The notes under the pieces are model-generated. The model was given only the letters and a program-made list of their open reading frames with translations. It made no database searches and was not told the DNA's origin. A DNA stretch of 64,000 nt from Aquamicrobium zhengzhouense (lineage in GTDB: Bacteria > Pseudomonadota > Alphaproteobacteria > Rhizobiales > Rhizobiaceae), in the NCBI RefSeq assembly GCF_016124105.1, contig NZ_JADGMQ010000004.1:62001-126000 (forward strand). Reading direction: 5' to 3'. A program made the translations under genes and the position numbers. Positions 6,265 through 18,950 of the stretch are shown here, one piece after another. Numbering within the stretch: the first letter of the stretch is position 1; every line of letters starts with the position of its first letter.

Positions 6265-8346
6265 CTATTCCGCCGCCTGCCTGAAGCCATCACGCGCCAG
6301 GGCCGAGCACTCGGCCATGACAGCGGACGCCCGGGCAATCGGGTTCGTCAGATAGAAATCAGTCACCGGCGAAACAAATGCCGCATTGATCACCGAGCCG
6401 CCCTTACCAGCCAGCGCCGAGACATCGGCCGGATTTCCGGCTTCGATTTCGTCGATTGCCGCAAAATGCGGGTAGTCGGCATAGAGCTTTGCGCGCAGCT
6501 GCGTGAGCGAATCGAATGGCAGACGCTTGCCGAGGACATCGGAAAGCGCGCGAAGAATCGCCCAGTCTTCCTTTGCCTCGCCCGGTGCAAAGCCTGCACG
6601 GTTCGCCAGCTGAACGCGGCCCTCGGTGTTCACGTATGTACCCGACTTCTCGGTATACGTCGCGCCTGGCAGAATAACGTCGGCGCGGTGCGCACCGGCA
6701 TCACCATGGCTGCCAATGTAGACCGTGAAGGCAGAGCCGATCTGCTTCATGTCGAACTCGTCAGCGCCGAGCAGGAACAGAACATCGAGCGCGCCCATCA
6801 TGGCCGCAACATCCTTGCCCCCCTCTCCCGGCACAAAACCGAGATCGAGACCACCAACGCGGGCAGCTGCAGTGTGAAGTACAGCAAAGCCGTTCCACTC
6901 GTCAGACACTGCACCAACGTCAGCTGCAACACGCGCGGCGAGTGACAGTACAGCAGCACCATCGTCACGCGCGAGTGCGCCCTGCCCAACGATGATCAGC
7001 GGACGTTGAGCGTCCTTCAGCGTCTGCAGGAAGCCGATCGAGCCTGAAGCCAGCTGCGCCAGAGTCTCCGGGCCGTTGCCGAGCGCTTCATAGTCATAAC
7101 GCAGGTCACCCACCTCGCCGATCACTCCGATCGGGAGAACGCCGGAGCGCCAACGCTTGCGGATACGTGCATTCAGAACCGACGCCTCAAAGCGCGGGTT
7201 GGAACCGATAATCAGGATCGCGTCTGCATCTTCGATCCCCTCAATGGTCGGGTTGAAGATGTAGCTTGCGCGACCGTTTGCCGGATCCAGTGCAGCGCCA
7301 TCCTGGCGGCAATCGAAGTTCGCCGAACCGAGCGATGTCATCAGCTGCTTCAGCGCGTACATTTCTTCGACGGCAGCAAGGTCACCGGCGATCGCGCCGA
7401 TCTTATCGCCAGAGGTCCGTGCAACTGCGTCATTGATCGCGCCGAACGCCTCGGCCCAGCTTGCCGCCTGCAGGCGGCCATCACGGCGCACATAGGGCCG
7501 GTCAAGCCGCTGCGAGCGCAGACCGTCCCAAATGAAGCGGGTCTTGTCCGAGATCCACTCTTCGTTCACCTGCTCATTGATGCGCGGCATGATGCGCATC
7601 ACTTCGCGGCCACGAGTGTCGACGCGGATTGCCGAACCGACAGCGTCCATCACGTCAATGGATTCGGTCTTGTTCAGTTCCCACGGACGAGCCTGAAACG
7701 CATAAGGCTTCGAGGTCAGCGCACCGACCGGGCAAAGGTCAATAACGTTACCCTGCAACTCGGACGTCATTGCCTTTTCGAGGTAGGTGGTGATCTCGGC
7801 ATCTTCGCCGCGACCAATCAAACCAAGCTCGGAAATACCGGCAACTTCGGTGGTGAAACGTACACAGCGCGTGCAGTGGATGCAGCGCGTCATGACCGTC
7901 TTAACCAACGGCCCAAGATACTTGTCTTCAACCGCGCGCTTGTTCTCGGCGTAACGCGAAGCGTCCACACCGAAAGCCATGGCCTGATCCTGAAGATCAC
8001 ACTCGCCACCCTGGTCGCAAATAGGGCAATCCAGCGGGTGGTTGATGAGCAGGAACTCCATCACACCTTCGCGGGCCTTTTTGACCATAGGCGAATTGGT
8101 GAACATTTCCGGCAGTTCACCATTCGGCCCCGGGCGCAGGTCGCGCACGTTCATGGCGCATGATGCCTGCGGCTTCGGAGGGCCGCCCTTAACCTCTACC
8201 AGGCACATGCGGCAGTTGCCTGCGATCGACAACCGCTCGTGGAAGCAGAAGCGTGGCACCTCTGCACCTGCCTCTTCCGCCGCCTGAAGAAGCGTGTAGT
8301 GATCGGGTACCTCGATCTCTTTGCCGTCGACCTTCAGTTTAGCCAT
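6265..8346 (-). CDS. nuoG: NADH-quinone oxidoreductase subunit G (iron-sulfur, molybdopterin-fold)
   Basis: Largest peripheral-arm subunit (693 aa). It carries the N-terminal 2Fe-2S ferredoxin domain (C34, C45, C48, C63), the His-Cys 4Fe-4S region ([17 protein letters not shown]), a further 4Fe-4S motif ([10 protein letters not shown]), and the long C-terminal domain with the molybdopterin oxidoreductase fold that lacks cofactor. Length matches alphaproteobacterial NuoG. It is separated from nuoF by the helix-hairpin-helix ORF at 8412-8919. Confidence 0.98.
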
Positions 8347-8411: not shown

Positions 8412-8919
8412 TTACCTGCGACCGGATAGGGCCGTTGCTTGCCCGCTCCAATCGTCACGTTCAATGCGGCCTGCCAGGCCAAACCCGGCGCTCAACGTCG
8501 CAATCACGTCCGCATACCAGCGTCTCGATATTGCGATAGGTCGTAACACCGCGCTTCTTCAGCACTTTCTCGAGCCTGGGCCCGATTCCGCTGATTTTCT
8601 TCAGATCCCTTGCGCCAGCCGCCTTGTTAAGGATTGAGCCTTTCGCAGGCGATGCCTTATCGAAGAGCTTCAACCGCGAAACAATTCCTTCCGCGACGGG
8701 GATCACAGCTTCAACGAAGCGACGCGACAGCCGCGCTGGAGCAGGAAATGCTCCTAGCCACTCACCAGATGGGTGGCTTGCACGGTTGAAAATGATCGTT
8801 CTGGCAACAGAAGCTGCACCGTCCGGGGACGCTTGCAGGCAAATCGACGATGCGACTTCCCTAGCTTTCCCAGGCATCCCGGCGCCGCCTATGTCACCAT
8901 ACTGCTTCATTCTTGGCAT
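8412..8919 (-). pseudogene. Helix-hairpin-helix ORF between nuoF and nuoG, frameshifted near its C-terminus
   Basis: The continuous frame from 8919 stops at 8461 (152 aa) and contains a helix-hairpin-helix motif, LKKISGIGPRLEKVLKKRG, followed by VTTYRNIETL. After codon 8515-8517 the frame degrades into CGRDCDVERR. A different frame from 8513 down to a TAA at 8412 reads ADVIATLSAGFGLAGRIERD then DWSGQATALSGRR, which matches the end of the homologous domain in NuoE of this window ([15 protein letters not shown]). So one base appears to have been gained at about 8512-8517. Such ORFs are usual at this place in rhizobial nuo operons. The N-terminal 90 residues are of unknown function. It is either a real lesion or a sequence error. 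Confidence 0.75.
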
Positions 8920-8972: not shown

Positions 8973-10277
8973 CTATTCCGCAGCAACCAGCACCGGTTCG
9001 GCGCGATGGGAGTTGCGGGTAAACTCGTCAATCCGACGCTCGATCTCAGGACGGAAATTGCGGATCAGGCCTTGGATCGGCCACGCCGCAGCGTCCCCAA
9101 GAGCACAGATCGTGTGGCCTTCCACCTGTTTGGTCACGTCGAGCAGCATGTCGATTTCGCGCTTGTGTGCTTCACCACGCACGAGACGCTCCATGACGCG
9201 CCACATCCAGCCCGTGCCTTCACGGCACGGTGTGCACTGGCCGCAGCTTTCGTGCTTGAAGAAGTACGACAGCCGAGCAACCGCTTTGATGATATCGGTC
9301 GACTTGTCCATGATGATCACGGCAGCCGTTCCGAACGACGACTTGCGCTCACGAAGACCGTCGAAATCCATCGGGCAATCGATGATGTCTTCTGCCTTGA
9401 CCACTGGGCACGAAGCGCCACCGGGGATCACGGCGAGAAGATTATCCCAGCCGCCACGGATACCGCCACCATGCTTTTCGACGAGCTCACGGAAGGTGAT
9501 GCCCATTTCTTCTTCGACGGTGCACGGCGTGTTGACGTGACCGACGAGCATGAACAGCTTGGTGCCAACGTTGTTTGGACGCCCCATCGAGGAGAACCAG
9601 GACGCACCACGACGCAGAATCGTCGGAGCAACTGCGATCGACTCGACGTTGTTGACGGTTGTCGGGCAGCCATAGAGACCGACGTTCGCAGGGAACGGCG
9701 GCTTCAGGCGCGGCTGGCCCTTCTTGCCCTCGAGGCTCTCGAGCAGCGCAGTTTCTTCACCGCAGATGTAAGCGCCCGCGCCGTGGTGGACGTAGACGTC
9801 CATATCCCAGCCGCACTTGTTATTCTTGCCGAGGAGACCAGCGTCGTAAGCTTCGTCAATCGCGCGCTGCAACGCCTCGCGCTCACGGACGAACTCACCG
9901 CGGATATAGATGTAGGCCGCGTGAGCGCCCATCGCGAAACCAGCGAGAAGGCAGCCCTCGACCAGCGTGTGCGGATCGTGCCGAAGAATGTCGCGATCCT
10001 TACATGTGCCGGGCTCGGATTCGTCAGCATTTACGACCAGGTAGTGCGGACGGCCATCGCTCTGCTTAGGCATAAACGACCATTTGAGGCCTGTCGGGAA
10101 GCCAGCGCCTCCGCGACCACGCAGACCGGATGCCTTCATCTCATCGATGATCCAGTCCCTGCCCTTTTCTACGAGCGCTTTGGTGTTGTCCCAATGGCCG
10201 CGACGCATTGCGCCGGCCAGCGACTTGTCGAAATGGCCATAAATATTGGTGAAGATGCGGTCTTTATCGTGAAGCAT
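8973..10277 (-). CDS. nuoF: NADH-quinone oxidoreductase subunit F (NADH/FMN binding)
   Basis: NADH-dehydrogenase flavoprotein of complex I (434 aa): it binds NADH, FMN and the N3 4Fe-4S cluster. The glycine-rich nucleotide motif [18 protein letters not shown], the FMN-site segment [19 protein letters not shown], and the cluster cysteines in [15 protein letters not shown] with a later CALGD are all present. It starts 10 bases after the nuoE stop. Reading frame is intact. Confidence 0.98.
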
Positions 10278-10287
10278 CCCGACCTCC

Positions 10288-11496
10288 TTAACGCGGCTTC
10301 TTGCCGAAGACGCGGATGTATTCCGCTTCGCCGCCTGTTGCCAGTGCGGATGCCTGCTTCACCCAATCGTCGCGATCGATACGGCCCTTGAAGTTCAGGT
10401 AGCCGTCGACCCAACGACGCTCGGCCTCAGTCCACGCGGCGATCTGCGCGAAGGTGAAGATGCCGAGCTCGTGAAGAATACCTTCGATCTTCGGGCCGAT
10501 CCCGGAGATCAGCTTCAGATCATCGGCCTCCGCCGGGCGCTCAATGCCGGCTGGACGATTTTCGTCATCCAGCGATGGCTTTGCCGTCTCCTGCGACAGT
10601 TCGGGCGCCTTGTATGCCGACGCCGGCTCTGCAACCTTGTCAGCATGCGCACGCGGCTCACCGTCGACAGACTTGTCGGCCTCAGCCTTATTCTCTGCGG
10701 GGGCCGCTACACTCGCTGCGGCTTCCGTGCTCGGGCTCACTTTAACCGGAGACGGCGTCGCAAAAGCGGGATTGGTTTCGATCGCATCTGTACGAGGACG
10801 CGCTGCCTCTGACGGAGCCTCGACACCCGCAGCAGAAGCACCGTTCGCACGTGCTTCCGCATCGCGGGTCGTCTTCAGAACAACCGTCTCGTCGGTCAGG
10901 CTGGTGAACCCCGTTGCAGGCGCAGAGAAGACGCGATCGGTCTGCGGACCTGTCTTGACCTGGTCACCACGTCCCGCCTCGAATTCATCGATAATTTCCG
11001 CAAGGCGCTCCGGGGTCAGATCCTCGTAGGTATCCTTGAAGACCATGACCATCGGCGCGTTTACGCATGCGCCCTGGCACTCCACCTCTTCCCACGAAAG
11101 CGTACCGGCATCGTTAAGATGCATCGGCTCCGGGTGAATCTTGGAGCGGCAGACGTTCATCAGGTCCTCAGAGCCGCGCAGCATGCACGGCGTGGTTCCG
11201 CAAACCTGGATATGAGCTTTCTTGCCCACCGGAACGATCTGAAACTGCGTGTAGAACGTCGCAACTTCCAGAACGCGGATATAGGCCATGTCAAGCATGT
11301 CGGCGACATATTCGATGGCCGCCTTGGTCACCCAGCCATCCTGCTCCTGAGCCCGCATGAGAAGCGGGATCACGGCGGACTGCTGACGGCCTTCCGGGTA
11401 CTTGTTGATGGTATGCTTCGCCCACTCCAAATTCGCCTCGGTGAAGGCGAAACTGGCTGGCTGAAAGGCTTGCTCTGCGAGACGGCGAACGGACAT
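10288..11496 (-). CDS. nuoE: NADH-quinone oxidoreductase subunit E with a C-terminal helix-hairpin-helix extension
   Basis: The first 165 residues are standard NuoE, a thioredoxin-fold 2Fe-2S protein with cluster ligands C99, C104, C140 and C144. The protein then continues to 402 aa, more than twice the length of E. coli NuoE (166 aa). The extension has an Ala/Pro/Glu-rich, probably disordered linker (about 190-320) and a helix-hairpin-helix-like domain from residue 327 ([19 protein letters not shown] to [15 protein letters not shown]). Long NuoE proteins of this type are known from rhizobia. The function of the tail is not established, and DNA binding is only suggested by the fold. It directly abuts nuoD. 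Confidence 0.96.
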
Positions 11497-16181: not shown

Positions 16182-17425
16182 TCATCGCGAGAGATAGACA
16201 GACCGCTGCCCTGCCCCAGCAGATGTGAGCCCGTCCAGCTTCCAGTCTGCCTGATTGATGATGAGCGTGTTGACCACCAGAGCAGTCTTGTGGCCATTGA
16301 TGTTCGACTTGGCATTGTAGGTCACGTCGCGGTTCGGCAGATAGATCGCGCCCTCCAGTCGCTGTAGCTCCATCCGATTGAACACGAATTGCTGCTTGTG
16401 CGAATTGTTCGACGGATCGCTTGTACGTTCGAACATCAATATTCCCTGATAGGGCCCGGAGGCAGGTGCCGAAGCGCTCATCGTGATGTTGTCGTTCAAC
16501 TGGATCCTCGATTGCGTGTTCGGGAAATAGAAGGTCACCCCTTCAGCCTTCACCGTCCCGGCATTGATGATCATGGTGCCCCTGACGATATGGAGCCCCG
16601 GTTCGAAGGTCACGTTTGCAGTGCCGTTGAAGGTGACGTCGCAATGGATGCCGCTCTTCAGCGTGTGAGTGCCAGGGCTTTTAGGTCCTGAGGTTGTGCA
16701 ACTCGCTGGCAATGTCGGCTCAGGAATTTTTCCCGCGTAGGGATCGGCTGGCGGCCTGCACCCGATCTCGAGCCCGCCAATTCGTCCGCCATTATTAAGA
16801 ATGCTCTTTCCCGCAACACACGTCCGGGAGACGTCTAGGCTCGACTGCGCGTTCATGATCATGGCGTTATGTTCGGTGGAGTGAACGTTCACCTCACATC
16901 TTTCGGCGTCGATCTTTGCCCCTGAGTTCACCAGCAACGCCTGTGTCTTGTTGGCAAGCACGGGATGCAAGGGGCCCCAGCTTCGGAGACAAAAAAGCGC
17001 GCTTGAGAGACGACCGAAATCTCCTTGCCTTCGGTCAAGCGGCCAAAGCCGAACATCGGCTCCATCGGCCGACTAGCCCACCCGTCAAGGACCCCTTCGC
17101 CGAGAGAGAAACCGGCTTTAATGACGCTGCCAGCGCCATCGGCTGACTGATTTTCTGAATTGTCCTGGAACGTCGCCCGGAAAAAGCGTTCCGCCTCGGC
17201 GATCTGGGCGTTGCCGTGACTGGCACCAGCGAGCACGGCGGCGTCAAGTCTTTGCTGCAACTCCGAACGCATACGCGAGGCGTTGGCGTATTCCATAGCG
17301 ACCGCCACACTCGTCAGCAGCGGCAAGCTCGTAATGGCTGCGATGATTGCGTAATTGCCTCGCCGGTCGTGCGCGAAGCTGCGAACAAGCGCTCCCAGCC
17401 GCCCGCTCAGACGTGAAATGTTCAT
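16182..17425 (-). pseudogene. Tad-like (TadG/TadE-type) pilus assembly protein, interrupted by a frameshift
   Basis: The 5' part (17425 to about 16964) encodes a basic start, MNISRLSGRL, then the TadE-like segment RRGNYAIIAAITSLPLLTSV with one transmembrane helix, as in rhizobial Tad-type proteins with a vWA/repeat C-terminus. At GAPCI the frame is lost; the continuation VLANKTQALLVNSGAKIDAE lies in another frame and runs to 16182. The shift maps to about 16962-16963, where one base seems missing (ATC-CC-GTG). The C-terminal part is rich in Asn and beta-strand patterns (MIMNAQSSLDVSRTCVAGKS). No other tad genes are next to it. Either a decayed gene or a sequence error. Confidence 0.75.
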
Positions 17426-17645
17426 ATTGGCCCCCAGCCGATGGATTTGTGTGATCGCCGTGTAGGAAAGGGGTATAAAGTTCTGCTGAATCCCGGCGGA
17501 AATGTTTGCTTTTTCCGTAACGGAATTGACAATCGAGCCTGCATAAGTTCCGTTCCCTACCTTCGCGCCGTCAGGTAGGTGGCGGAAGATGAGGGATGAC
17601 CTAGAGCGCAGCTTCACGCGAACGCGTTCGTCGATGAGATTTGCC

Positions 17646-18950
17646 ATGACCAGAACCGACATCGCCCGCAGGGTGTACAATCACACCTGGAAGCTCGACC
17701 CGATCGTGCGCAGCCTGCTCGACACCGACTTTTACAAGCTGCTGATGCTGCAGATGATCTGGGGCGTTTATCGTGATGTCGACGCTACCTTTTCGTTGAT
17801 CAACCGGACCAAGTCGGTCCGCATCGCCGACGAAATCGATGAGGAGGAGCTAAGGGCACAGCTGGACCATGCCCGTACGCTTCGCTTTACCAACAAGGAG
17901 ATGATCTGGCTCGCGGGCAACACTTTCTACGGTCGCAAACAGATCTTCGAACCTGATTTCCTCGCCTGGCTCGAAAACTTCCGCCTGCCGGAATACGAGC
18001 TCTTCAAGCGCGACGGCCAGTACGAGCTACACTTCCATGGCCGCTGGCACGACACCACAATGTGGGAAATTCCCGCGCTCGCAATCATCAACGAATTGCG
18101 CTCACGCGCTGCGTTGAAGTCTATGGGTCGGTTCGCGCTTGATGTGACCTACGCCCGCGCCAAGGCGAAGGTCTGGGAGAAGGTCGAGCTGCTCAGGAAA
18201 TATCCGGATCTGCGGATCTCGGATTTTGGCACCCGTCGCCGGCACTCTTTTCTCTGGCAACGCTGGTGTGTTGAAGCTCTGAAAGAAGGTATCGGCTCAG
18301 CATTCACCGGAACTTCAAACGTGCTGCTTGCCATGGATACGGATCTTGAAGCGCTTGGAACCAATGCACACGAACTGCCTATGGTCCTTGCTGCGCTCAC
18401 CAACTCGGATGAAGAGTTGCGCGCCTCACCCTACCGGGTGCTTGAGGCCTGGCAGAAATATTATGGCGGCAATTTGCTGATCGTGCTGCCGGACACTTTC
18501 GGTACGGCGTCTTTCCTGCGCGACGCGCCCGACTGGGTCGCCGACTGGACCGGCTATCGCCCCGACAGTGCACCTCCGATTGAGGGCGGTGAGCGGATCA
18601 TTCAGTGGTGGAAAGAGCGGGGCCAAGATCCGAAAGACAAGCTTCTGATCTTTTCCGACGGCCTCGACGTGGCAACGATCGAGAAGACCTACCTCCACTT
18701 CAAAGGGCGGGTGCGGATGTCATTCGGCTGGGGCACCAACCTGACGAACGACTTCAAGGACTGCGCGCCGGCGCACAATGACCGCCTCAAATCGATCTCT
18801 CTGGTCTGTAAGGTGACGCAGGCCAATGGCCGACCTGCAGTCAAGCTTTCGGACAACCCGGAAAAGACAACGGGCGATCCGAAAGAGGTCGAGCGATACC
18901 TCAGGGTCTTCGGCGAGGAATCCCGGGTAAGACAGCCGGTCCTCGTTTAG
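17646..18950 (+). CDS. pncB: Nicotinate phosphoribosyltransferase
   Basis: Salvages nicotinate to nicotinate mononucleotide with PRPP and ATP for NAD synthesis. It is 434 aa from the ATG at 17646, the usual length. Diagnostic segments are [16 protein letters not shown] near the N-terminus, [14 protein letters not shown] in the middle (its active-site His is followed by SFLWQ), and [10 protein letters not shown] plus [10 protein letters not shown] near the C-terminus. Its 3' end faces an aldo-keto reductase gene, with a hairpin between. Confidence 0.95.

Follow-up and report, generated by a model that had tools for sequence, protein, structure and literature searches.

Probable decay of a frameshifted helix-hairpin-helix gene between nuoF and nuoG in Aquamicrobium zhengzhouense

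The passages of PMC12079452 that deal with protein-O of Dinoroseobacter shibae describe a 239-residue subunit of RC-LH1 whose function is given there as unknown, whose N-terminus lies in the membrane, and which has its C-terminal domain in common with NuoE; the gene is part of the nuo operon, where nuoE and nuoF flank it. Chain O of PDB entry 8yy9, named reaction-center protein O and likewise 239 residues long, would be this same protein, to judge from name and length. NuoE proteins that end in the domain have a model of their own in NCBIfam (NF009040, PRK12373), and the domain, a helix-hairpin-helix (HHH) module, is a known, uncharacterised tail found on both NuoE and the reaction-centre protein. 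Literature searches returned nothing on an HHH protein with nuoF or nuoG, on a PhaH phasin with NADH, or on HHH with LivG and NuoE, and nothing relevant by title on a nuoE/F/G accessory subunit in Rhizobium or on a frameshifted or pseudogene locus at nuoF/nuoG. We also found no family name for the HHH-module protein encoded between nuoF and nuoG, a broken copy of which is the subject of this report.

We analyzed a 64,000-nucleotide stretch (hereafter the window) of the Aquamicrobium zhengzhouense genome, an assembly of 29 contigs and 4.07 Mb. Its nuo genes, which we take to be such by recognition and in the case of NuoE additionally by NCBIfam, run on the minus strand from nuoA (~14.4 kb) to nuoL (~1.5 kb). 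A preliminary description of the sequence had reported an HHH reading frame between nuoF and nuoG that stops at 8461 and is interrupted by a frameshift, and both points hold (Table 1). The frame occupies the same nuoF–nuoG interval as an intact gene in relatives, and its start region can be aligned with that of the gene in the sister species (L003). Neither this frame (20.2 bits) nor NuoE (17.7 bits) reached the 27-bit gathering cut-off of Pfam HHH_5 (PF14520). Within the broken gene there was no promoter-like site, and one terminator-like site against 0.8 expected.

Table 1. Features at and around the broken HHH gene (window coordinates)
Feature	Position	Strand	Description
nuoF	8973–10277	−	Frame intact; last base 8973
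nuoG	6265–8346	−	Frame intact; start 8346
nuoE	10288–11496	−	Intact copy of the HHH module at the C-terminus, residues 325–388
Broken HHH gene, first frame	8461–8919	−	152 codons, open, between nuoF and nuoG
Parts of the first frame			Eroded hydrophobic N-terminal segment, linker, first half of the HHH module (~8610–8518), 18-codon wrong-frame tail (8517–8464), stop
HHH module, second half	8412–8516	−	Next frame, own stop codon included
Frameshift site	8512–8520	−	One base more than in 60/60 relatives between conserved anchors
Region of the hydrophobic segment	8767–8862	−	Window residues 20–51; in relatives hydrophobic, perhaps membrane-associated

A profile of the HHH module, built from 59 relatives with the window excluded, was searched against the window's 1685 six-frame segments of at least 20 amino acids. 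It matched the first half of the module (positions 2–31 of 66) in segment 9027–8464 (E = 2.1e-11) and the second half (positions 30–64 of 66) in segment 8558–8415 (E = 1e-9), the latter also detected by a profile of the second half only (E = 1.1e-11). For both module profiles, the sole stronger match was the operon's own NuoE, and all further matches had E > 1. A full-length profile returned the same three matches plus a weak one on the opposite strand over nuoE (10475–11026, E = 0.006), with nothing further below E 0.1 among the window's segments. Homology to one protein is therefore found on both sides of the break, and the two halves meet at the expected position.

Two conserved anchors, DLK and GR-[I]-x-R-D, stand 136 nt apart in the broken gene but 135 nt apart in the window's own NuoE and in each of the 60 relatives measured (59 distinct), so one extra base must lie near 8512–8520; the alignment does not fix its exact place within about that range. 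A single extra base had been proposed at 8512–8517, in agreement with this result. The second frame had been drawn from 8513 to 8412 and was correctly identified as a frame, but its boundary shifts, the continuation starting three bases earlier. It is readable and module-like over 34 codons, and its likeness to the C-terminus of the NuoE module, noted from the start, is borne out by the profile match. Together with the single frame of the relatives, the profile matches and the anchor spacing show that the second frame is no chance match, an explanation that the search of the window's segments also ruled out. At the shift, where a slippery sequence had been raised as something to look for, no run exceeds two identical bases.

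For comparison, we used 84 loci containing both nuoF and nuoG, 83 of them distinct (L004 duplicates L014, genus-mate G001 and Aquamicrobium aerolatum DSM 21857 being sequence-identical at the locus); genus-mate G007 brings the distinct loci to 84. Left out of the counts were L016 and L091, which have no nuoF in the stretch, and L008, L009, L011, L012, and L013 (the window's own), which have NuoE matches and no nuoG in the stretch; L015, L026, L037, and L074, missed by the motif filter, enter the presence counts and lie outside the 60-row alignment tests. Among the first 84 loci, the standalone gene occupied a single frame in 64 (63 distinct) and two frames in none, and 20 had no match at the E 1e-3 threshold of the profile search. 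The corresponding figures for the 84 distinct relatives are 64, 0, and 20, and all seven genus-mates, G007 included, carry the gene intact. The designation "conserved nuo-linked gene" thus fits the 64 loci but not the 20, while the comparison with relatives, where the second half of the module is conserved in a single frame and no two-frame copy occurs, upheld the reading of the second frame as genuine.

We placed the gene on a NuoG tree with 84 tips, the window among them, that was rooted on Kaistia and Pseudovibrio and read without support values. Parsimony calls for a single gain and six losses there, and these losses account for 15 of the 20 loci that lack the gene. The tree thus suggests that the standalone gene was probably lost six times in these 15 loci; it may never have been present in the other five (Kaistia, two Pseudovibrio, and two Aureimonas). 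In Nitratireductor luteus (L046), a frame that we named by eye as pentapeptide-repeat-like stands between nuoF and nuoG instead of the HHH gene. Across the 76 loci in which NuoE was found, 48 have both the NuoE tail and the standalone gene, 8 the standalone gene only, 8 the NuoE module only, and 12 neither, so the two are absent independently of each other. In L014, L019, L031, L052, L057, L070, L078, and L082, the standalone gene is intact and NuoE ends without the module; no second module was found in another forward frame of these eight standalone-only loci. Within the window's own genome, a whole-genome profile search (E up to 0.01) matched NuoE, both pieces of the broken gene, and a LivG-like ATPase that bears the same tail, and revealed no second intact copy.

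We consider the broken gene to be a pseudogene in progress, undergoing ordinary decay, with a probability of about 0.75. In relatives, the gene encodes a small protein that begins with a hydrophobic segment, which may anchor it in the membrane, continues with a variable linker, and ends in the HHH module with its five predicted helices. Change counts suggest that selection on the gene relaxed in the window's lineage, where the N-terminal part changed roughly as fast as silent sites of the flanking nuoF and nuoG. A single extra base would then have split the HHH module, ending first-frame translation 18 codons past the shift, while nuoF, nuoG, and the NuoE module remained open. The gene is presumably dispensable, given its absence from 20 of the distinct loci.

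What the truncated product would lack can be gauged from an AlphaFold2 model of an intact relative, L014 (mean pLDDT 72.7, pTM 0.43), in which the module forms five helices of at least four residues (pLDDT 91–97) and the N-terminal half and linker have low confidence. The break falls before the third helix, so the last three of the five module helices would be lost. Searched against solved structures, this model had no match at E ≤ 0.001; up to E 10 there were 75, headed by mitoribosomal proteins and Y-family polymerases, so no partner for the gene product was identified.

Changes were polarised with four outgroups and compared with the sister species L003. The broken gene has accumulated 28 amino-acid changes versus 5 in the sister, compared with 11 versus 12 in NuoF/NuoG (NuoG 6 vs 9, NuoF 5 vs 3); by part, the counts are 25 versus 5 of 89 upstream and 3 versus 0 of 23 downstream. 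Upstream changes on the window branch are spread evenly over codon positions 1, 2, and 3 (27, 24, and 25 of 108, 114, and 83 sites), unlike those of NuoG (7, 3, and 74) and NuoF (6, 0, and 64) on the same branch, and positions 1 and 2 together (51/222) do not differ from silent NuoF/NuoG sites (138/646, p = 0.64). The window branch is itself the faster one, with 138 silent-site changes versus 55 in the sister. The sister's intact gene is also even upstream, with few changes (7, 8, and 6), and its non-module part gave 10/162 versus 4/61. Pairwise upstream pN/pS is 0.58 for the window and L003; other intact pairs range over 0.39–0.69, except for one very close pair at 0.08. The even spread in the sister and this ordinary pN/pS indicate that the upstream part is loosely constrained anyway.

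The HHH module behaves differently: over both halves, the window branch shows 16/117 changes at positions 1 and 2 versus 12/45 at position 3 (p = 0.06). The module therefore seems to have kept some constraint along part of the branch, which makes the shift young or, in the extreme case, an error. In the alignment tests, 36 positions are conserved in at least 85% of the other rows, and the window's row deviates at 10 of them, more than any of the other 59 (median 1); L081 follows with 8, and raising the threshold to 95% leaves both at 4. Its N-terminal hydropathy maximum (0.96) is the lowest of the 60 rows, next to 1.01 in L081 and a median of 1.49. The branch ratio, defined as changes at positions 1 and 2 of the gene over those at NuoG position 3, is 1.16 in the window (second of 60), 0.10 in the sister, and 0.39 at the median, with 0.85–0.97 in L018, L068, and L070. 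The standalone gene of L081 (L081:4175–4876) has the top ratio, 1.29, above that of the window copy, in an open frame. Against decay, then, intact copies elsewhere evolve loosely, and the open gene of L081 is about as divergent as the window's. A fair reading is that the N-terminal part eroded under little constraint and the module was constrained for longer. Given loose evolution in intact relatives, the divergent open L081, and the constraint on the module, the frameshift is probably recent.

The preliminary description had left the break as decaying, deliberately shifted, or mis-sequenced. Decay is favored by the upstream erosion and the excess of amino-acid changes. A sequencing or assembly error, which would leave the gene divergent but whole in the living organism, appears unlikely. 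It would be consistent with the residual constraint on the module and with L081 as an instance of an intact relative matching the window's divergence, and at least one other window gene (16182–17680) is split between frames relative to a same-genus relative. On the other side, the shift has no homopolymer longer than two bases, the upstream part eroded independently of the shift, and the frames of nuoF, nuoG, and nuoE are open. We further compared 146 kb in both directions with G004, a genome of the same genus (108 homologous frames in either direction; 53 frames for the window alone), which gave 11 and 10 split candidates, most of them judged by eye only, in a test that missed the broken HHH gene itself. 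The similar counts suggest that the window's assembly is no worse than that of G004.

Two of these candidates were followed into the reading-frame lists: the one at 16–17 kb is a split gene, and the one at 19–20 kb consists of overlapping neighbouring frames. By eye, most of the remaining candidates are end effects, and at least one (contig 23, ~18 kb left of the window start) is perhaps internal. The split gene, presumably pilus-assembly-like (TadG-like), lies on the minus strand in two frames (17680–16928 and 16970–16182), where G004 has one 431-codon frame.

A gain of function by the truncated protein as a short form is highly improbable: its frame is open and begins like the sister gene, but the upstream part has been changing as fast as silent sites in the flanking genes, and half of the predicted folding unit would be lost. 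Programmed frameshifting, which would join the two frames into one protein and could draw on the readable second frame, is the least probable reading and very unlikely, since none of the 84 distinct relatives has the two-frame arrangement and the site has neither the homopolymer run nor the stop codon at the shift point expected of such sites.

Taken as ordinary bacterial gene decay, the broken gene is by itself of little consequence, and annotation should mark it as a probable pseudogene. Its use lies in the evidence it adds that complex I can do without the nuo-linked HHH-module gene, and in pointing to an uncharacterised module on several unrelated proteins. The same C-terminal module, joined to different N-terminal proteins, is found in the phasin PhaH (NF045508) and the ribosomal proteins L21 (NF008915, NF008916) and S2 (NF008966), whose NCBIfam models are matched over the C-terminal part alone, with scores below the cut-offs. 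It also ends a protein encoded on contig 6 of the window's own genome (L108:523–1866), again with a different N-terminal part, which we take by recognition to be a LivG-like ABC ATPase. A tentative and on balance doubtful reading is that the tail, common to a set of alphaproteobacterial proteins (NuoE, the LivG-like ATPase, L21, S2, PhaH, protein-O, and the product of the broken gene), is a general tag by which they dock to large complexes or membranes; the nuoF–nuoG product would then be anchored in the membrane and accompany complex I as an optional partner. If so, the repeated absence of either nuo copy and the decay reported here would mean that a dispensable factor in assembly or regulation has been lost.

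Among known systems, the intact nuoF–nuoG gene of Rhizobiaceae/Phyllobacteriaceae-type relatives shares place, architecture, and module with the broken gene, which differs from it in the frameshift and the eroded N-terminal segment. NuoE of the NF009040 type is matched by the intact sister protein in its C-terminal part (1e-22), but the sister protein lacks the thioredoxin-like ferredoxin part and, at 81.4 of 514 bits, falls far under the cut-off. The C-terminal module is also shared with chain a of PDB 9wqv (profile E = 7.4e-35) and with reaction-center protein O (8yy9 chain O, E = 8.9e-31). The gene for protein-O, however, has a different place in the operon, and the protein has a membrane hairpin with a disulfide where the L014 model predicts one long, low-confidence helix.
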